NCBI GenBank assembly: GCA_002067705.1
Contig: MVRL01000107.1
Span: 1-64,000 of the forward strand
Direction: 5' to 3'
Length of the DNA stretch: 64,000 bases
From: Methanosaeta sp. PtaU1.Bin112
GTDB lineage: Archaea > Halobacteriota > Methanosarcinia > Methanotrichales > Methanotrichaceae
In this document: piece after piece, positions 48,407 through 56,424 of the stretch
Layout: each line of letters opens with the position of its first letter
How positions within the stretch are numbered: position 1 is the first letter of the stretch
The notes under the pieces: generated by a model
The model's input: the letters and a program-made list of their open reading frames with translations, nothing else
The model's database searches: none
What the model was told of the DNA's origin: nothing
Made by a program: the position numbers and the translations under genes

Positions 48407-48766
48407 TTATGTCAGGTCCGGCTGGTTGATCATCAGTTTTACATATTCTGTGAGAATAGGAATATCCCTGGCAGCAACAGGTTTCCAATTCTCATCAACC
48501 ATTGGCTCCCAGGCATCTCCCTTTATGGCCCAATAGGCAATCTCTTCCACGCTGCACAGCCCTGAGCAGATCCCGTCCGACTTATTCTCATAAAAGCCAA
48601 AGAACTTCCTGCTGATTGAGCCGTACTCCGCCAGATACCAGTGCATGTTTTTCTTATTAAAAAGGTGCAGGTAGATGATCTCTGCACCAATCAGGCAGTG
48701 GTCATAAGTTAATGCTGGCAGTTTAGCCAGGTCGCTTGCTTTGAGGTCTCTAAATCTTCGGCTCAT
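48407..48766 (-). CDS. DUF2958-like protein
   Basis: 119 residues. The pattern IIYLHLFNKKNMHWYLAEYG ... FFGFYENKSDGICSGLCSVEEIAYW resembles DUF2958, a small domain common on mobile elements, though here with more Cys. Its ATG overlaps the HerA-like gene's stop (TAATG), so it is translated from the same mRNA. Function unknown. Confidence 0.6.
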   Translation of the reverse strand: MSRRFRDLKASDLAKLPALTYDHCLIGAEIIYLHLFNKKNMHWYLAEYGSISRKFFGFYENKSDGICSGLCSVEEIAYWAIKGDAWEPMVDENWKPVAARDIPILTEYVKLMINQPDLT

Positions 48767-50379
48767 TATGCTTTCCTCGCCCCAAAAACCTTCTTTAACA
48801 GGCCGCCTGCCTTCTTCTCCCTGGGCCTGACGCTGCCGGATTTTGACCCTGCGGGCGATGCGGGCGGGCTGCCCGATCTCTTGTCTTTGCTCCGGGAAGA
48901 GCGCGATCCGGAGGATGACGCTTTCTCTTTGATAACAATTTGAGTGCTCACTCCACCATGTCTTGATTTCCTCGGCCTGACATTAACTGTGATGGGACGC
49001 TCTATCTCATTGCTCACCAGCATGGCCACTCCTGGCGGCAGTCTCTTGATCTCCTCCTCCAGATCCCCGGTCATTCCCTCCAGGCCTTTGGAAAGGGCTT
49101 TGAGGTCATTGGGATTGGTGACTCTCATTATGATCTGAGTGTTACACTGAGAGATGACATTTTTATCCACGCGGGCCGGCCTCTGGCTGATGATCATCAG
49201 ACCCATGCCGAATTTTCTGCCCTCTGCGGCAATGGTGCGGATGATGCTGGTAGATGCGGCGTTTCCAGTGCCCCTCTCCGGAATGTAGTTATGGGCTTCT
49301 TCTACCACAACCATTCCCGGTGAGATCAGCCTGCGCTTTCTGGCCTCAAAGATGTCGGTCAATAGACGGGATACGATCATAGCCTGCAGCTCAGGGAGGA
49401 TGCCGGTCATGTCGATGACCGCTGCCCTTCCAGGTCGAAGGAGCTCTTCCATTGGCGTTTCCGTTCCCGAGAAGAGACCCAATTCCAGGAGCGATTCCAG
49501 CTGGCTTACCAGGTTCCATTTCACCTTGGAATTGCTCCGCACCACCTGATCTATGATGTCTTCCAGAGTGTAGACATCCGTCTCCGCCCGCAGGGCGCTG
49601 ATAGCCTCGTAGAGCAATCCCAGCTGGCCGCTGCTGCTGCTCTCATGGGGAATCATCTTGGCCACCTCCCGGGCGGACATGTTCATTCCGTTAAAGCGAA
49701 AAGGCCGGTCGGCTCTGGGGTTCATGGCCATCTCCCCAGGAGTGTAGATGGTTGCATCATAGCCTCGCGGCTTGACCTTATATTTAGAGAAGTCTCCGAC
49801 CTTGTTGGCATCTTTCATAGAGGCATACTCGCCATGAGGATCTATGATGAGCAGAGCCACCTTTCTTTCCAGAAGCTCCTCCAGGATCACGGCAGCAGTA
49901 TAGGATTTTCCTGAGCCCGTCTTGGCAAGCACGCTGCAATGCTTCTGTACCAGGGTATTGGCGTCCAGCTCCACCTTGATATCATAGCCCCGCAGCATGC
50001 CTATGTACATGTCTCCTTTGGCCAGGCCGAGAGTTGCTTTGATCAGTTTCTCATCCGCTATGAACACCGGATCACCCGGCCGGGCAGGGCTGGTGGGAAG
50101 ACGCAGCTTGCCGTTGCTTGCCACGCCAATAACCCTGGCGTCAGCGATCATCATCTCTTTGGAATCATAATTGCGAACGGCATCATTTAGCTGGTTCACG
50201 CTGTAGGCGATGTTAGATCGTTTGATGTCCTCTACCTGGGCGAGGGCCCAGTCTCTCCCATCTGCTTTGGCCTTGATATAGGTGCCTCTGCCCACCTCTT
50301 TGTTTATAATGAACTTGAATGCCAATGGATTGGTCTCACCAACAATTGTTCCGACCGATCCCTTTGCTATCGACATCAT
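48766..50379 (-). CDS. HerA-type (DUF87) hexameric ATPase
   Basis: About 537 residues from the double ATG at 50379/50376; the open frame reaches 50466 but the family N-terminus MSIAKGSVGTIVGE starts here. A HAS-barrel (about 1-95) precedes Walker A AKTGSGKSYT (about 151-160), Walker B VVVEEAHNYIPE, and the sensor region ISQRPARVDKNVISQCNTQI. The last 80 residues are Ser/Lys/Gly-rich and basic, a probable DNA-binding tail. HerA works with the NurA nuclease in DNA end resection, but no nurA gene is nearby. Confidence 0.88.
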   Translation of the reverse strand: MMSIAKGSVGTIVGETNPLAFKFIINKEVGRGTYIKAKADGRDWALAQVEDIKRSNIAYSVNQLNDAVRNYDSKEMMIADARVIGVASNGKLRLPTSPARPGDPVFIADEKLIKATLGLAKGDMYIGMLRGYDIKVELDANTLVQKHCSVLAKTGSGKSYTAAVILEELLERKVALLIIDPHGEYASMKDANKVGDFSKYKVKPRGYDATIYTPGEMAMNPRADRPFRFNGMNMSAREVAKMIPHESSSSGQLGLLYEAISALRAETDVYTLEDIIDQVVRSNSKVKWNLVSQLESLLELGLFSGTETPMEELLRPGRAAVIDMTGILPELQAMIVSRLLTDIFEARKRRLISPGMVVVEEAHNYIPERGTGNAASTSIIRTIAAEGRKFGMGLMIISQRPARVDKNVISQCNTQIIMRVTNPNDLKALSKGLEGMTGDLEEEIKRLPPGVAMLVSNEIERPITVNVRPRKSRHGGVSTQIVIKEKASSSGSRSSRSKDKRSGSPPASPAGSKSGSVRPREKKAGGLLKKVFGARKA

Positions 50380-50662
50380 ACTCTTAGATCGCCTTCTAGC
50401 TACATTCCCATTTTCAATACGTATCTTGAAGTATAAAAAGATTGGTCCAAATGCCTGTCTGTCCATTTCAGAAAATTTAATTTAATATAATCGTGCACTG
50501 AGCAATATTGCCTTAAATCTCTGCATTGCTGCCTGCATCAATCCCTAAATATCTCTTACAAACTGAAACACTTTCAATGTATCTTATCTCAATTAGGAGA
50601 AAAATGCCAATAATAATCTAGATATCCTACTTTTGAAATTTTTGTGACACAATTCCTAATTG

Positions 50663-51355
50663 CTATCTCCAATAGTAGCTCGGCGACCTTCTAATCGCCT
50701 GTCCATAGGCCAGTCCTACCAACAGTCCCACGATGTGAGCCATGTGAGCGATGTTGTCTGATGAACCCAATGTCAGGAAATCAATCAGTGCGAATAGTAC
50801 TACTGCGCCTCGAATGCTCATCGGTATGAAGAAGAAGAGCAGTATGCGAATCTCGGGGGCAATTATCGCCAGACATCCCAGCACCCCGAAAAGGGCTCCG
50901 CTCGCACCTACCATGGATCCGCTGGATATTATCATCTGGCCAAAAGCCGCCACAATCCCTGAGAGCATGTAAATCTGCAGGAATTTGCTTTCCCCCACCC
51001 GCCTTTCCAGCTCGGTGCCAAAGAAGAAGAGAAAGAGCATATTCCAGAAGAGATGGTTGAAGTCGGCATGAACGAACATATGAGTTATGAGCGTCCAGGG
51101 CCTTTGCATCAAATAGCTGGGATTTAGAGCCAGATAGTTATATACAAATGAAGGAAAAATTATGCTGATCAGGAATACTACTATGCATATCAGCAATATA
51201 ATCCCTGAATAGGTCACAGGGAGCCCTGAAGGGATATAGCCTCGCCAGCCGTTTGCAGCAATCGGCTCGCCCCATTCGTCTCTCCGTCTGAAGTCCTCTC
51301 TTCTGATTGACATGGTCTGAAATATGGTCTGAAATGGTCTTAATTTAGCTACCAT
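50663..51355 (-). CDS. Rhomboid-family intramembrane serine protease
   Basis: 230 residues. Six or so transmembrane helices; the catalytic Ser is in GASGALFG and the His in NIAHMAHIVGLLVG, with the HMFVHADFNHLFWNM motif in the second helix. Its ATG at 51355 overlaps the upstream TGA by one base (TGATG), so it is coupled to the NYN gene. Rhomboids cut single-pass membrane proteins within the membrane. Confidence 0.92.
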   Translation of the reverse strand: MVAKLRPFQTIFQTMSIRREDFRRRDEWGEPIAANGWRGYIPSGLPVTYSGIILLICIVVFLISIIFPSFVYNYLALNPSYLMQRPWTLITHMFVHADFNHLFWNMLFLFFFGTELERRVGESKFLQIYMLSGIVAAFGQMIISSGSMVGASGALFGVLGCLAIIAPEIRILLFFFIPMSIRGAVVLFALIDFLTLGSSDNIAHMAHIVGLLVGLAYGQAIRRSPSYYWR

Positions 51356-51849
51356 CACTCCGGCACATACTGGCCGTCTCTCAATACTATGACGTAATCC
51401 GCGGAATTTCGCAGGGCTACAGAGAAGCCCGGCTCTGCCCCGAAGATGATCGTCTCCTTGCCATGTTCCATTGCTTTCATGAGCACCGGCTTTAGATCGG
51501 CATCTCGGGTCACAAGTGCCAGGGTATCGATAACAGGGTTGTAGATCATATCCACGCCCTCCACAGCCATTCTCACATCCACGTCGCTGGTGCAGATTAC
51601 CGGATCAAATCCCTGATTTTCCACCGCTTCGACTAATTTCTCCGATGCATACTGGTTCAAGAAGACCTTACCCATCTTGATATCGCCATAATCCTTCAGG
51701 ATATCCCGAATCTCCTCCAGATCCATCTGAAACTCCTTTCTGAGCATATTGGGACCATCCACGAGCAGTCCGATCTTTTTTCTCCCCTTCTCCTTCTTGG
51801 AGCCCAGGTAACTCATGATATGCTCGAACTGTATCGGTATCCGATTCAT
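51355..51849 (-). CDS. NYN-domain protein, TIGR00288-like archaeal family
   Basis: 164 residues. LLVDGPNMLRKEF gives the first metal-binding Asp, ICTSDVDVRMAVEGVDMIYN the middle acidic residues, and LVTRDADLKPVLMKA the last. This is the archaeal NYN family of putative ribonucleases. It lies between tatD and rhomboid in a tight operon. Second NYN protein of the window. Confidence 0.88.
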   Translation of the reverse strand: MNRIPIQFEHIMSYLGSKKEKGRKKIGLLVDGPNMLRKEFQMDLEEIRDILKDYGDIKMGKVFLNQYASEKLVEAVENQGFDPVICTSDVDVRMAVEGVDMIYNPVIDTLALVTRDADLKPVLMKAMEHGKETIIFGAEPGFSVALRNSADYVIVLRDGQYVPE

Positions 51850-51870
51850 GTTGACCCTTTCTTAATAGAT

Positions 51871-52692
51871 TTATCCGATTTTATAAATTCTTTTGGTATT
51901 TTCCGCAGTTATCCGGGCTATCTCTTGAGGATCCATGCCTCTGATCCTGCCAATGAGGCGAACCGAGTCAATTACCAGAGAAGGTTCATTTCTGCCTCCG
52001 CGAGGTGAGAGGAAGGGACTGTCGGTTTCCACCAGCAGTCGGTCCAATGATACATTTCTAGCCAGAATCTGATGATGAGGGGATCGGCAGATATTGGTCG
52101 CCAGTGAAATGTAAAATCCTCTGTCGAGGGCCTCCTTCATAGTTGCGATCGAGCCGCTATAGCAGTGGAAGACGACCTTTTCCAGATTCTTGACCATCTC
52201 CAGCGCAGGCTGCTCTGCATCACGGGAATGAATGACCAGTGGCTTATCGAGGGACTTGGCAAGTTCAATTACCTTTGCAAAGACCTTTGCCTGCTGCTGC
52301 CTGCCGGGAGCATCTTTGCAGTGATAATAATCAAGTCCCGCCTCGCCTATGCCTACGGCCTGGCCGGCATTCTCTTCAATCTGCGCAAAGATCATCTCCA
52401 ATTCCGGCTCTTTTATGCTCTGCAGAGTATTGGGTGAGAGCCCCAACGTAGCAGAGATAAAATCGTGCTTTCGGGCTAGCTCAAGGGACTTGGCATTGGT
52501 GGAGTAGTCCACCCCCGAGTTGATCATGTGGATTAAACCAGATCTTTTAGCGCTCTCCAGCACAGTTTCGCGGTCTTTGTGAAACTGCTTAAAGTCAAGG
52601 TGACAATGCGAATCGATTACACCATGCAAAGAAGCATTTGGCGATGAGATTCCTCCGCGGCACATTCTTTTAGTATCGTTTAGCGCTGTCAT
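51871..52692 (-). CDS. tatD: TatD-family metal-dependent hydrolase
   Basis: 273 residues. TIM-barrel amidohydrolase with the first metal motif DSHCHLDF, GIGEAGLDYY, VIHSRDAE, FHCYSGS and VETDSPFLSP, all standard TatD landmarks. TatD enzymes are 3'-5' exonucleases or DNases in repair or apoptosis-like DNA turnover. First gene of the tatD-NYN-rhomboid operon, divergent from the STAS gene. Confidence 0.92.
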   Translation of the reverse strand: MTALNDTKRMCRGGISSPNASLHGVIDSHCHLDFKQFHKDRETVLESAKRSGLIHMINSGVDYSTNAKSLELARKHDFISATLGLSPNTLQSIKEPELEMIFAQIEENAGQAVGIGEAGLDYYHCKDAPGRQQQAKVFAKVIELAKSLDKPLVIHSRDAEQPALEMVKNLEKVVFHCYSGSIATMKEALDRGFYISLATNICRSPHHQILARNVSLDRLLVETDSPFLSPRGGRNEPSLVIDSVRLIGRIRGMDPQEIARITAENTKRIYKIG

Positions 52693-52884: not shown

Positions 52885-53232
52885 ATGAGCAAGATGGAGA
52901 TCATCCATAGACTTATCGAGGATATTCCGGTTATTATCGTATCCGGTAAGATCGATGCCGTATCTTCCAAGGACCTTGGGAATGCTTTGGCCGGACTGAT
53001 AGATGAGAACAAGAGGTTTCTTGTAGTTGACATGGAAAAGGTGGAATATCTCAGCAGCTCAGGCCTGAGAGTGCTCATGGCATCGCTCAACAAGCTTAAA
53101 AATATGGATGGAGATCTGCTACTGGCAGCTCTTCAGCCTTTTGTCAAAGATGTCTTCTCCTTGACCGGAGCGAACAGATTTTTTTCCATCTATCCAAATC
53201 ATGATGAGGCGATCAAGAATATTAAAAAATAA
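52885..53232 (+). CDS. Stand-alone STAS domain protein (anti-sigma factor antagonist type)
   Basis: 115 residues, one STAS domain. The start strand IPVIIVSGKIDAVSS and the phosphoacceptor loop YLSSSGLRVLMAS (Ser equivalent to that of SpoIIAA/RsbV) are present, with a C-terminal NRFFSIYPNHDEAI. In bacteria such proteins are phosphorylated by RsbW-type kinases and dephosphorylated by SpoIIE-type phosphatases. Those partners follow directly: a SpoIIE phosphatase 25 bases downstream and a permease with an RsbW-like tail. Confidence 0.9.
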   Translation: MSKMEIIHRLIEDIPVIIVSGKIDAVSSKDLGNALAGLIDENKRFLVVDMEKVEYLSSSGLRVLMASLNKLKNMDGDLLLAALQPFVKDVFSLTGANRFFSIYPNHDEAIKNIKK

Positions 53233-53257
53233 AGCATAATGAAAGGTCAATGCTCAC

Positions 53258-54646
53258 ATGGCCAACTCACTGATCAGCGATTCCCTGGTGCTGCTCCAGG
53301 CGGTAAGCGTAATCATAGTGGCTGCTCTCCTGATATCTCGCAGCCGGCCGTTCACGGAGATAATCGATGGGCGCCCAACAGCTAAGAGCCAGCTGCTCCT
53401 CTCCATCTTTTTCGGAGCCGTCTCGATCTACGGCTCTCTAATCGGCATTAATTTTCTCGGCGCCATCATCAGCGTGCGTGATCTTGGACCACTCGTAGGA
53501 GGGCTCGCCTGCGGGCCGATGGTAGGACTTGGAGCAGGACTTATCGGCGCAACATTCCGTTTATCTGAGGGGGGATTTACAGCTCCTGCCTGCAGCATAG
53601 CCGTCTCCCTGGCAGGCATCATTGGGGGGCTTATTTACTGGAAAAGAGGCCGCTTTCCTGGCATTATCCCCTCCACTGTTTTTGCAGTCCTCTTTGAGCT
53701 ATTTCATATGCTGCTCACGCTTGCCATCTCCCGGCCTTTCGATATGGCTATGGATGTGGTAGCGCAGGCCTCCTTGCCTATGGTTCTGGCCAATGGGGCA
53801 GGGATGCTCATATTCGCGTTCATCATAGTCAATGTCATCAATGAGAGAGAGACTATGAGAGAAAGGGACAGATACCAGCTTGAGCTGCAGATAAAGAAGG
53901 CTGAACTCATTGTGGCCGCTGATATTCAGAAGAGCTTTCTTCCCGGAAAGATTCCTTCTCCGGAAGGATTTGATATCGCAGCGACCTCCATTCCGGCCAA
54001 AGAGGTTGGCGGGGACTTTTACGATTTTTTCAAGAAGGATGACAATCTGCAGTTTGTAATCGCCGATGTATCCGGAAAGGGCGTTCCTGCGGCATTGTTC
54101 ATGGCACTCTCTCGAATAATTGTCAGGGCGTGTTCTGCTCCTTTGAGGGGCGGATTTGAGAGGCTGAGGTGCGCCAACCAGATGATCGTTGAAGAATCCG
54201 GCTCTGCTACCTCGGGCATGTTCGTGACTCTCTTCCTGGCGAGGCTGAACCTGTTGGATAGAAGCTTGAACTATGCCAATGCCGGCCATAATCCTCCTCT
54301 GCTCTTCCGGGCAGATTCGAAGAGCATAGAGAGAATGGATGTGACCGGCGTGGCTTTGGGGATGATGGCGGATATGGAATATGAACAGCGGCAGATGATC
54401 CTCGATCCAGGCGATGTCCTGCTTCTTTATACCGACGGTATAGTGGAGGCTATGAACGGAAAAGACGAACTCTTTGGTGAAAGCCGCCTCAGATCCTCTC
54501 TTGCGGCTGCTGCCGGCCTCTCTGCTCAGGAGATACTGGATAGCGTCTTGCGTGATCTGGGGATCTTTACCGGAGACATGGAGCAGTCGGACGATATTAC
54601 CGCCCTGGTGATCAAGGTTGAAAGGCGATGTTCAAATGTTGTCTGA
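53258..54646 (+). CDS. Membrane SpoIIE-type PP2C phosphatase with LytS-like sensor
   Basis: 462 residues. The N-terminal 200 residues have about six transmembrane helices in the 5TMR-LYT pattern (FFGAVSIYGSLIGINFLGA, RDLGPLVGGLACGPMVGLGAGLIGATFRLSEGG). A linker helix leads to a SpoIIE domain (about 215-460): SIPAKEVGGDFYDFF, FVIADVSGKGVPAALFMA, YANAGHNPPLL, YTDGIVEA and SDDITALVI, with the metal-binding Asp residues kept. It should remove phosphate from the STAS protein in response to a membrane or outside signal. Middle gene of the cassette. Confidence 0.92.
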   Translation: MANSLISDSLVLLQAVSVIIVAALLISRSRPFTEIIDGRPTAKSQLLLSIFFGAVSIYGSLIGINFLGAIISVRDLGPLVGGLACGPMVGLGAGLIGATFRLSEGGFTAPACSIAVSLAGIIGGLIYWKRGRFPGIIPSTVFAVLFELFHMLLTLAISRPFDMAMDVVAQASLPMVLANGAGMLIFAFIIVNVINERETMRERDRYQLELQIKKAELIVAADIQKSFLPGKIPSPEGFDIAATSIPAKEVGGDFYDFFKKDDNLQFVIADVSGKGVPAALFMALSRIIVRACSAPLRGGFERLRCANQMIVEESGSATSGMFVTLFLARLNLLDRSLNYANAGHNPPLLFRADSKSIERMDVTGVALGMMADMEYEQRQMILDPGDVLLLYTDGIVEAMNGKDELFGESRLRSSLAAAAGLSAQEILDSVLRDLGIFTGDMEQSDDITALVIKVERRCSNVV

Positions 54647-54714
54647 CAGCAGATTGAAATACCAATCCAGTTCAATCTAGTTCGATCAGGCAACTGAGGG
54701 CAGGGAAATCCAGG

Positions 54715-56424
54715 ATGACCAGAAAACCGACCAATCTCATCTACGGCGTTGACGAGAAACCGCCTCTTGCGACGACACTCCTCCTCGGATTGCAGCACAT
54801 ATTCATACTATCTATCGCTTTCATCTTCCCGGTAGTAATAGTAAAGGAGATCGGCGCATCTCCTGAAGACGCGCAAAATCTCATCTGCATGGCCATGCTG
54901 GCAACCGGCTTTTCCACTGCTCTGCAGGCATTTAATAAGGGGCCGGTCGGCTCCGGCTATCTCTGTCCTCTGCTAAACGGCCCGGCCTTCGTGCCTGCGT
55001 CGCTTCTGGCGGGCAAGGCAGGGGGCCTTGCACTCATCTTCGGCATGACGGCCATAGCCGGCGTCTTTGAAGCTCTCTTCTCTCAGGTAGTAAGCCGAAT
55101 GCGCAAGTTCTTCCCGCCGGAGGTGACGGGAACAGTAGTTCTCATGGTGGGAGTGGAGGTGATACCAATCGCCGTGCCCAAGTTTTTTGGAGTGGACAGC
55201 ATCCACACCTCAATTCAAGCGCTGCCTTTCTTTGTGGCATTGATCACTTTAGCAGTCACGGCGGGTTTCAATGTCTGGGGCAAAGGCAAGATGCGTCTTT
55301 ACTCCCTGCTGATCGGCATGGTGACTGGCTATGCAGTCTCCTTTGCTACAGGCATCTTGACCATAGACCAGGCCAGGCTGATATTCGACTCTGCATCTTT
55401 CCAGATTCCAGAGATAGGCAAATTCGGAATGTCCTTTAGTGCTGTGATGCTCGTGCCATTTCTTGTGGCAGCCTTGTCCTCCGCGCTCAAGACCATGGGC
55501 GATCTAACCACCTGCCAGAAGATCAATAATGCAGATTGGAAGAGAATAGAGATGCGATCCATTGGTCGCGGAATGCTTGCCTGCGGAGCGGGAAACATAG
55601 CCTCTGGGCTGCTGGGGGCTCTGGGCCAATCGGTCTCCTCCAGCAACATCGGCCTGTCAATTGCCACCGGTGCAACCAGCAGGCAGATCGGCTATGCGGC
55701 GGGAGGCATTCTCATGCTCCTGGCTTTCTTTCCCAAGTTGGCCGCCATCTTCGTGATCATGCCTACGCCGGTAATGGGAGCCTCACTGATATTCACTGTC
55801 TGTTTTATGATCATGGCAGGAATTCAAATCATCATGTCCCGTATGATTGATTCCAGAAAGACCTTCGTGGTAGGTCTTTCTATAATCTTCGGGCTCTCCT
55901 ATGACGCCCTGCCCGGCCTTTATGCTGGTGTAGATCCAATGCTGAGGCCCATGCTCTCGTCATCTCTGGCGGTTGCCACCATTTGTGCCGTGCTGCTCAA
56001 TGTCTTCTTCCGCCTGGGCATCAGCCAGAAGATGGAGTTTGAGATCGATCCGGCCGCGGATACCTCGGAGAAGATCTTCCAGGTCATGGAAAAGCAGGGC
56101 GGAATTTGGGGCGCCAGGCGAGATGTCATTATGAACTGCATCGCCGCCATGAACGAGCTTCTCGATGCCGCTCCGTTCCTTGGACTAATGGGAAAGAAGA
56201 TATCCATGAGCGTCCAGTTCGATGAGTTCAACCTGGATGCCCGGGCGGTCTATGAGGGCAAGCCCTTTGAGATTCCTGTAGCTATGCCCAGGATCGATTT
56301 CATGCACGATGAAAAGGCAAGCGCACTATCTCTTGCGGCGTTCACCATGAGCAGGTATGTGGATAGGATGAGCTTTTCGGAGAGAGATGGCAAGACCGAG
56401 CTGCATATGCATTTTGAGCATTAG
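54715..56424 (+). CDS. NCS2-family xanthine/uracil-type permease with C-terminal RsbW-like ATPase domain
   Basis: 569 residues. Residues 15-435 hold the 14-segment NCS2 core with motifs PLLNGPAFVPASLLAG, FFPPEVTGTVVLMVG and GQSVSSSNIGLSIATG. The C-terminal 130 residues (about 440-569) are soluble. They contain a helix VIMNCIAAMNELLDAA resembling the N-box of RsbW/GHKL ATPases (with Asp in place of Asn), VQFDEFNLDARAVYEGK, and a last strand TELHMHFEH. The ordinary family ends near residue 440. The start has GGCAGG/GAAATCCAGG upstream, 68 bases after the phosphatase stop. It probably imports a purine or pyrimidine base under control of the STAS protein. Confidence 0.82.
   Translation: MTRKPTNLIYGVDEKPPLATTLLLGLQHIFILSIAFIFPVVIVKEIGASPEDAQNLICMAMLATGFSTALQAFNKGPVGSGYLCPLLNGPAFVPASLLAGKAGGLALIFGMTAIAGVFEALFSQVVSRMRKFFPPEVTGTVVLMVGVEVIPIAVPKFFGVDSIHTSIQALPFFVALITLAVTAGFNVWGKGKMRLYSLLIGMVTGYAVSFATGILTIDQARLIFDSASFQIPEIGKFGMSFSAVMLVPFLVAALSSALKTMGDLTTCQKINNADWKRIEMRSIGRGMLACGAGNIASGLLGALGQSVSSSNIGLSIATGATSRQIGYAAGGILMLLAFFPKLAAIFVIMPTPVMGASLIFTVCFMIMAGIQIIMSRMIDSRKTFVVGLSIIFGLSYDALPGLYAGVDPMLRPMLSSSLAVATICAVLLNVFFRLGISQKMEFEIDPAADTSEKIFQVMEKQGGIWGARRDVIMNCIAAMNELLDAAPFLGLMGKKISMSVQFDEFNLDARAVYEGKPFEIPVAMPRIDFMHDEKASALSLAAFTMSRYVDRMSFSERDGKTELHMHFEH

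Follow-up and report, generated by a model that had tools for sequence, protein, structure and literature searches.

The 64,000-nucleotide stretch analyzed here (the window; contig MVRL01000107.1 of Methanosaeta sp. PtaU1.Bin112, labeled C107 of genome G000, a Methanothrix-like archaeal assembly) carries three consecutive genes on one strand that encode a stand-alone STAS protein, a membrane SpoIIE-type phosphatase, and an NCS2-fold permease. Sampled genomes and loci are given as G and L numbers, respectively. Because the switch genes adjoin a permease that carries a degenerate copy of the kinase on its tail, the transporter is taken as the candidate output of the switch. We give an even chance to the reading that a partner-switching module encoded here acts on a transporter with a tethered pseudokinase tail. 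The genes and the tail are as follows.

52885..53232, + strand: stand-alone STAS protein, 115 amino acids (Pfam STAS, 1.3e-19; TIGR00377, 2.9e-21)
53258..54646, + strand: membrane phosphatase, 462 amino acids (PF07694, 5TM-5TMR_LYT, 2.5e-38; PF07228, SpoIIE, 2e-49)
54715..56424, + strand: NCS2-fold (SLC23-like) permease with pseudo-RsbW tail, 569 amino acids (Xan_ur_permease, 1.5e-56, residues 21-398)
56029..56421, + strand: C-terminal tail, permease residues 439-569, degenerate GHKL/RsbW-like (AlphaFold2, Foldseek, hhalign, residue census)

The open reading frames (ORFs) and Pfam matches agree with the original prediction, made from the DNA letters, that three such genes follow one another. 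The gaps between them are 25 bp (STAS to phosphatase) and 68 bp (phosphatase to permease). The order STAS-PP2C-permease is not due to chance, as it recurs in Methanothrix and one sister genus (L029, L030, L031, L035, and L038, the last of which ends at a contig edge). Neither an intact RsbW kinase gene nor a sigma-factor gene was found in the window locus. To our knowledge, archaea lack bacterial sigma factors, and the switch is present, as had been predicted, in an organism expected to be without them.

Fold of the permease tail

The family match of the permease stops at residue 398 in Pfam and at about residue 432 in NCBIfam, and the tail (~131 residues) matched nothing above the cut-off in either database. 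An AlphaFold2 model of the tail, built from an 11-sequence alignment, had a mean predicted local distance difference test score (pLDDT) of 88.7 and the secondary structure b-a-a-b-b-a-b-b. When the model was compared with the PDB by Foldseek, the best matches were UsfX, RsbW, and SpoIIAB (E down to 6.2e-5, probability 1.00); the top matches had TM-scores of about 0.6-0.7 and were mostly chains out of partner complexes. Alignment of 28 tails with nine archaeal RsbW proteins by hhalign gave a probability of 94.1% across nearly the whole domain, whereas the controls for the tail profile (STAS, PP2C, and 20 column-shuffled RsbW) gave 0.1-0.9%. Searching PDB sequences with the tail profile returned chance matches only (best E 0.58); the relation to RsbW was visible solely by fold search and profile-profile comparison.

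Judging by the model, the tail adopts the GHKL fold of RsbW and SpoIIAB, with the same order of secondary-structure elements, as the original prediction had proposed from the letters. Absence of this fold, or failure of the three genes to be conserved together, had been named beforehand as grounds for giving up the idea; both were examined, and the fold was recovered and the gene order was the same in Methanothrix metagenome-assembled genomes (MAGs) and the sister genus. Modeling of the whole permease gave a low-quality result (pLDDT 49), which offers no basis for placing the tail relative to the membrane domain. The tail evolves under purifying selection: its pairwise ratios of nonsynonymous to synonymous substitution across Methanothrix and the sister genus were 0.08-0.16, compared with 0.055-0.104 in the membrane part. 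The degenerate GHKL tail on this clade of NCS2-fold transporters is a domain without an entry in Pfam or NCBIfam.

Catalytic and contact residues of the tail

In GHKL ATPases, the Asn, Asp, and glycine residues have established roles. In the residue census, the Mg2+-binding N-box Asn and the adenine-binding G1 Asp were each present in 0/28 tails, and the G2 GGxG box was lost as well. The N-box Glu was kept in 25/28 tails and in 9/9 archaeal RsbW proteins; its position in the window is as follows.

56155..56157, + strand: Glu481 of the tail, counterpart of RsbW N-box Glu49 (residue census)

In the RsbV-RsbW crystal structure, Glu49 of RsbW touches the phosphoacceptor Ser of RsbV (PMC7340262). 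With the ATP/Mg2+ motifs lost and the STAS-contacting Glu kept, the tail looks like a pseudokinase, and its STAS-binding face may have been retained.

STAS protein and sensor-phosphatase

53056-53058, + strand: codon of Ser58, candidate phosphoacceptor of the STAS protein, motif YLSSSGLRV (residue chosen by analogy with the D-S-[ST]-G motif in RsbV/SpoIIAA)

A Ser occupied this position in all aligned STAS homologues except that of the decayed locus L040 (Gly), so the STAS protein appears to carry the phosphorylatable residue of a partner-switching system. The phosphatase consists of a 5TMR-LYT sensor (residues 32-191) and a SpoIIE-type PP2C domain (residues 261-454), in which the motifs VGGDFYDF, ADVSGKG, YTDG, and DDIT, including those for metal, are all intact. 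Pyruvate recognition by BtsS involves R72, R99, C110, and S113, and its S113A mutant loses pyruvate sensing (PMC10653868). Equivalents of the first three residues were kept in 14/14 sensors and that of S113 in 0/14. A pyruvate-like carboxylate is thus a plausible ligand, but the assignment stays unproven because the sensors lack the very residue whose change abolished sensing in BtsS.

Transporter domain and substrate site

The permease is the sole PF00860 match in G000, and its sequence-family match assigns it to the NCS2/NAT transporter fold; UraA and UapA are its closest relatives with solved structures. Two substrate-site residues, in transmembrane helices 8 and 10 (TM8 and TM10), are replaced.

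55489..55491, + strand: Lys259, TM8, where UraA (E241) and UapA (E356) have the substrate-binding Glu (profile alignment to UraA and UapA)
55642..55644, + strand: Ser310, TM10, where the NAT signature motif, as defined in PMC10011568, begins with E/Q (profile alignment)

The TM8 Lys was present in all aligned archaeal tail-bearing permeases except the f26 tandem pairs (Gln/Asn), and the TM10 position of these permeases held Ser, Ala, or Gly. Tail-less archaeal NCS2 proteins (L014-L017, L019, and L020) had Glu at both sites, and bacterial tail-bearing permeases had Asp at the TM8 position when read by eye. Since both NCS2 substrate residues are replaced, a nucleobase is a doubtful cargo, and the earlier proposal that phosphorylation gates base uptake is doubtful for the same reason. 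The basic residue in the substrate site suggests an anionic cargo.

The f26 permeases occur in tandem (L102, L103, and L104); beyond its first ~75 positions, the tail model has no match in the second copy, whose TM8 residue is the Asn.

Locus architecture and origin of the tail

Deeper-branching members of the family carry an intact RsbW-like gene between the PP2C and permease genes (L037, L093, L105, L106, and L107), and in L036 such a gene adjoins a permease encoded on the opposite strand. The two sister-locus RsbW-like genes tested matched Pfam HATPase_c_2 at 8.7e-28 and 2.6e-29. The order was PP2C-permease in another sister genus (L034), STAS-PP2C-RsbW-permease in another family of the phylum (L150), and permease-STAS-PP2C in a further family (L094 and L097). 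A tree built from 40 permeases grouped all 31 tail-bearing members, bacterial ones included, into one clade (97/98), and likewise the kinase-less loci of Methanothrix, G031, and G035 (100/100); some branches are long, and the inner order is uncertain. The simplest reading of the tree would be that the tail was acquired once and then inherited vertically, the neighboring kinase being lost in the lineage of Methanothrix; gain elsewhere is a less simple alternative. Every Methanothrix-clade genome checked, apart from the incomplete G002, has an RsbW-type kinase outside the locus. G000 encodes four STAS, four SpoIIE, and two RsbW-type proteins, both of the latter outside the window locus, and in Methanothrix the kinase for the window STAS protein is presumably supplied in trans.

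When the tail was searched against plasmids by tblastn, proteins annotated as "solute carrier family 23" and bearing the tail were found in Azospirillum, Thiodictyon, and Pseudoroseomonas. These three plasmid records constitute the bacterial evidence, and they indicate at the sequence level that the tail-permease architecture is not confined to archaea. The gammaproteobacterial plasmid of Candidatus Thiodictyon syntrophicum (L112:1147-8390) encodes two tail-bearing SLC23 permeases and the remnant of a third, beside which lies a STAS gene with an SSAG motif. The phage records listed held just ordinary xanthine/uracil-type permeases without the tail.

Association of the switch with the permease

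Six genomes (G033, G036, G062, G063, G064, and G066) have no STAS match and no strong HATPase_c_2 match outside the locus; the extra HATPase_c_2 matches in G062, G063, and G066 fall below the cut-off and within large ORFs. In genera g9, g4, and g5, STAS and RsbW occurred together in 6/6 genomes carrying the permease and in 1/11 lacking it. Across 393 genomes of the phylum, with phylogeny ignored, SpoIIE was present in 19/19 strict tail carriers and 97/374 others. The strict count excludes the weak tail matches of G219 and G223, the former of which adjoins a SpoIIE gene and is probably itself an RsbW gene.

Several observations weigh against the permease as output of the switch. Tail permeases without an adjoining STAS or SpoIIE gene occur in archaea (L032, L090, L095, L096, and L099-L104), and the bacterial tail permeases H1 and H3 also lack such neighbors. 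G067, the single exception among the 11 genomes above, keeps STAS-PP2C-RsbW without a tail permease. The tail equivalents of the RsbW STAS contacts D42 and S48 are not charge-conserved. Moreover, the tail is missing from the majority of genomes in the phylum that have SpoIIE, which means that the permease is not the general target of these proteins and that other targets must exist.

Proposed mechanism and alternatives

From the gene content and its conservation, the fold, the loss of catalytic residues, the intact Ser and PP2C motifs, and the kinase of the sister loci, we infer how the STAS protein and the tail might interact. The membrane sensor-phosphatase, on binding its ligand (probably a small carboxylate), would dephosphorylate the STAS protein, and an RsbW-type kinase, encoded by the adjacent gene in sister genera or elsewhere in Methanothrix, would re-phosphorylate it. 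Dephosphorylated STAS would dock on the pseudo-RsbW tail and alter transport of the substrate, and phosphorylation would release it. The tail would descend from an RsbW-like kinase that lost ATP binding and catalysis and retained its STAS-docking face. We are more tentative, leaning somewhat toward disbelief, about the full version of this proposal, namely a post-translational partner switch of archaea and some bacteria in which a phosphorylatable STAS protein targets a pseudokinase domain of kinase origin, fused to a transporter of the elevator type, with a pyruvate-like carboxylate as signal and an anionic cargo; this target would be the first to be identified for archaeal "anti-sigma" proteins.

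The tail might instead be structural, stabilizing a dimer, or bind some other partner or ligand without contacting STAS, in which case the operon would reflect co-regulation only. NCS2 proteins act as dimers, RsbW dimerises via b1/a1 (PMC7340262), and the strongest tail motifs (WGAR, FDEFNLD, and HFDH) are unlike RsbW and partly off the known STAS face; the many tail permeases that do not lie beside STAS genes also fit this view. However, the repeated linkage to precisely STAS, PP2C, and RsbW in several lineages, the co-absence in g9, g4, and g5, and the retained STAS-contacting Glu argue against this view, and we regard a tail that does not touch STAS as unlikely, though deserving serious attention. 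Signaling could also run in reverse, with the permease as a transceptor whose tail holds or frees STAS according to transport state and whose true output lies elsewhere, among other targets of the kinase. Transporters doubling as receptors are known (Sul1/Sul2), G067 has the switch without the permease, and the two further STAS/RsbW sets of G000 are possible receivers of a signal. This direction nevertheless seems distinctly unlikely: the module already has its own membrane sensor, and the g9 and g4 genomes with the permease yielded neither a further STAS protein nor another clear RsbW-type kinase.

The original prediction had regarded the tail as the kinase of the system, which by phosphorylating STAS would regulate nucleobase transport. 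The GHKL fold, the kept N-box Glu, and the lack of a kinase gene in the Methanothrix loci would fit such a tethered kinase. On the residue census, however, the tail was rejected as an active kinase, since the Mg2+-binding Asn, the adenine-binding Asp, and GGxG are gone in 28/28 tails. Separate intact RsbW genes at seven loci (L036, L037, L093, L105, L106, L107, and L150), the kinases encoded elsewhere in Methanothrix-clade genomes, and the altered substrate residues of the permease also count against this role, and we consider it highly improbable.

Comparison with known systems

Like RsbU/RsbV/RsbW and SpoIIE/SpoIIAA/SpoIIAB of Bacillus, the system combines a STAS protein with a conserved Ser, a PP2C phosphatase with its motifs, and, in sister loci, an intact RsbW. 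Unlike these switches, the locus has no sigma-factor gene, and the gene conserved beside the switch encodes a permease whose tail is RsbW-like but degenerate. In 2009, SpoIIAA/SpoIIAB/SpoIIE-like proteins, the same three types as here and also in methanogens, were described in archaea as limited to Methanomicrobiales, in an account that was unable to assign targets to them (PMC2686161). In contrast, the present set has a candidate target attached and a wider distribution (Methanothrix and relatives). Archaeal 5TMR-PPM fusions, whose sensor-phosphatase architecture is identical to that of the trio, have been noted (PMC11109136); that account does not seem to include the STAS, kinase, and permease context of this locus.

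The permease shares with UraA, UapA, and XanQ (NAT, SLC23) the NCS2 fold, most of the NAT motif (N-x-G-x4-T-G), and the Asp four residues beyond the TM8 site, but differs in the TM8 Glu to Lys and TM10 Glu/Gln to Ser replacements and in the added 131-residue tail. SLC26/SulP transporters belong to the same fold superfamily and associate with STAS, as proposed here; in them STAS is a fused C-terminal domain, whereas here it is a separate, putatively phosphorylatable protein with its own gene, and the transporter bears the GHKL-like fold of a STAS partner. Control of a transporter by STAS has a precedent in MlaB, a stand-alone STAS protein that regulates an ABC transporter (PMC7367683). MlaB likewise acts on its transporter (MlaF) at the phosphosite face; that system differs in the transporter type and in having neither a PP2C/RsbW set nor a GHKL-like tail. 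No description of an NCS2 transporter with an RsbW-like tail was found in the open-access literature, although such absence is not proof. The permease is a concrete candidate target for archaeal "anti-sigma" proteins, and in several genomes its switch is the only one found. If the proposal is true, the locus is a split, switchable counterpart of SLC26-STAS transporters, and it suggests fast control of uptake through a reversible protein switch.

Neighboring genes and related loci

Upstream of the trio, on the opposite strand (window 48766-52692), lie HerA-like ATPase, rhomboid-like, NYN, and TatD-like genes, a block also present next to the trio, in unchanged order, in further Methanothrix MAGs. 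In the decayed locus L040:4885-7350 (G032), the STAS ORF is intact, with Gly replacing one Ser of SSSG, the PP2C and RsbW genes are split over several frames, and the permease persists as tail fragments only. In L039:6544-8260 (G009), a second tail permease runs across two frames and is apparently a frameshifted copy.

A metallo-beta-lactamase-fold protein of ~570 amino acids, whose C-terminal half is unassigned, adjoins several archaeal STAS/RsbW modules (L042:2478-4196, L043:9355-11097, L036:2507-4249, L148:4826-6568, L106:960-2675, L093:2502-4205, L154:382-2094, and L033:257-1957), and in L033 (G002) it adjoins a tail permease; the protein may belong to the switch as an additional component. 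In G134, an 811-amino-acid protein (L092:1255-3690) encoded near a tail permease and an RsbW module joins an N-terminal STAS domain to a C-terminal TCAD9/APH-like kinase region. On contig C150 of G000, a 1016-amino-acid sensor (L043:6110-9160) combines a PAS-like region, SpoIIE, and RsbW in one chain and is followed by two STAS genes.

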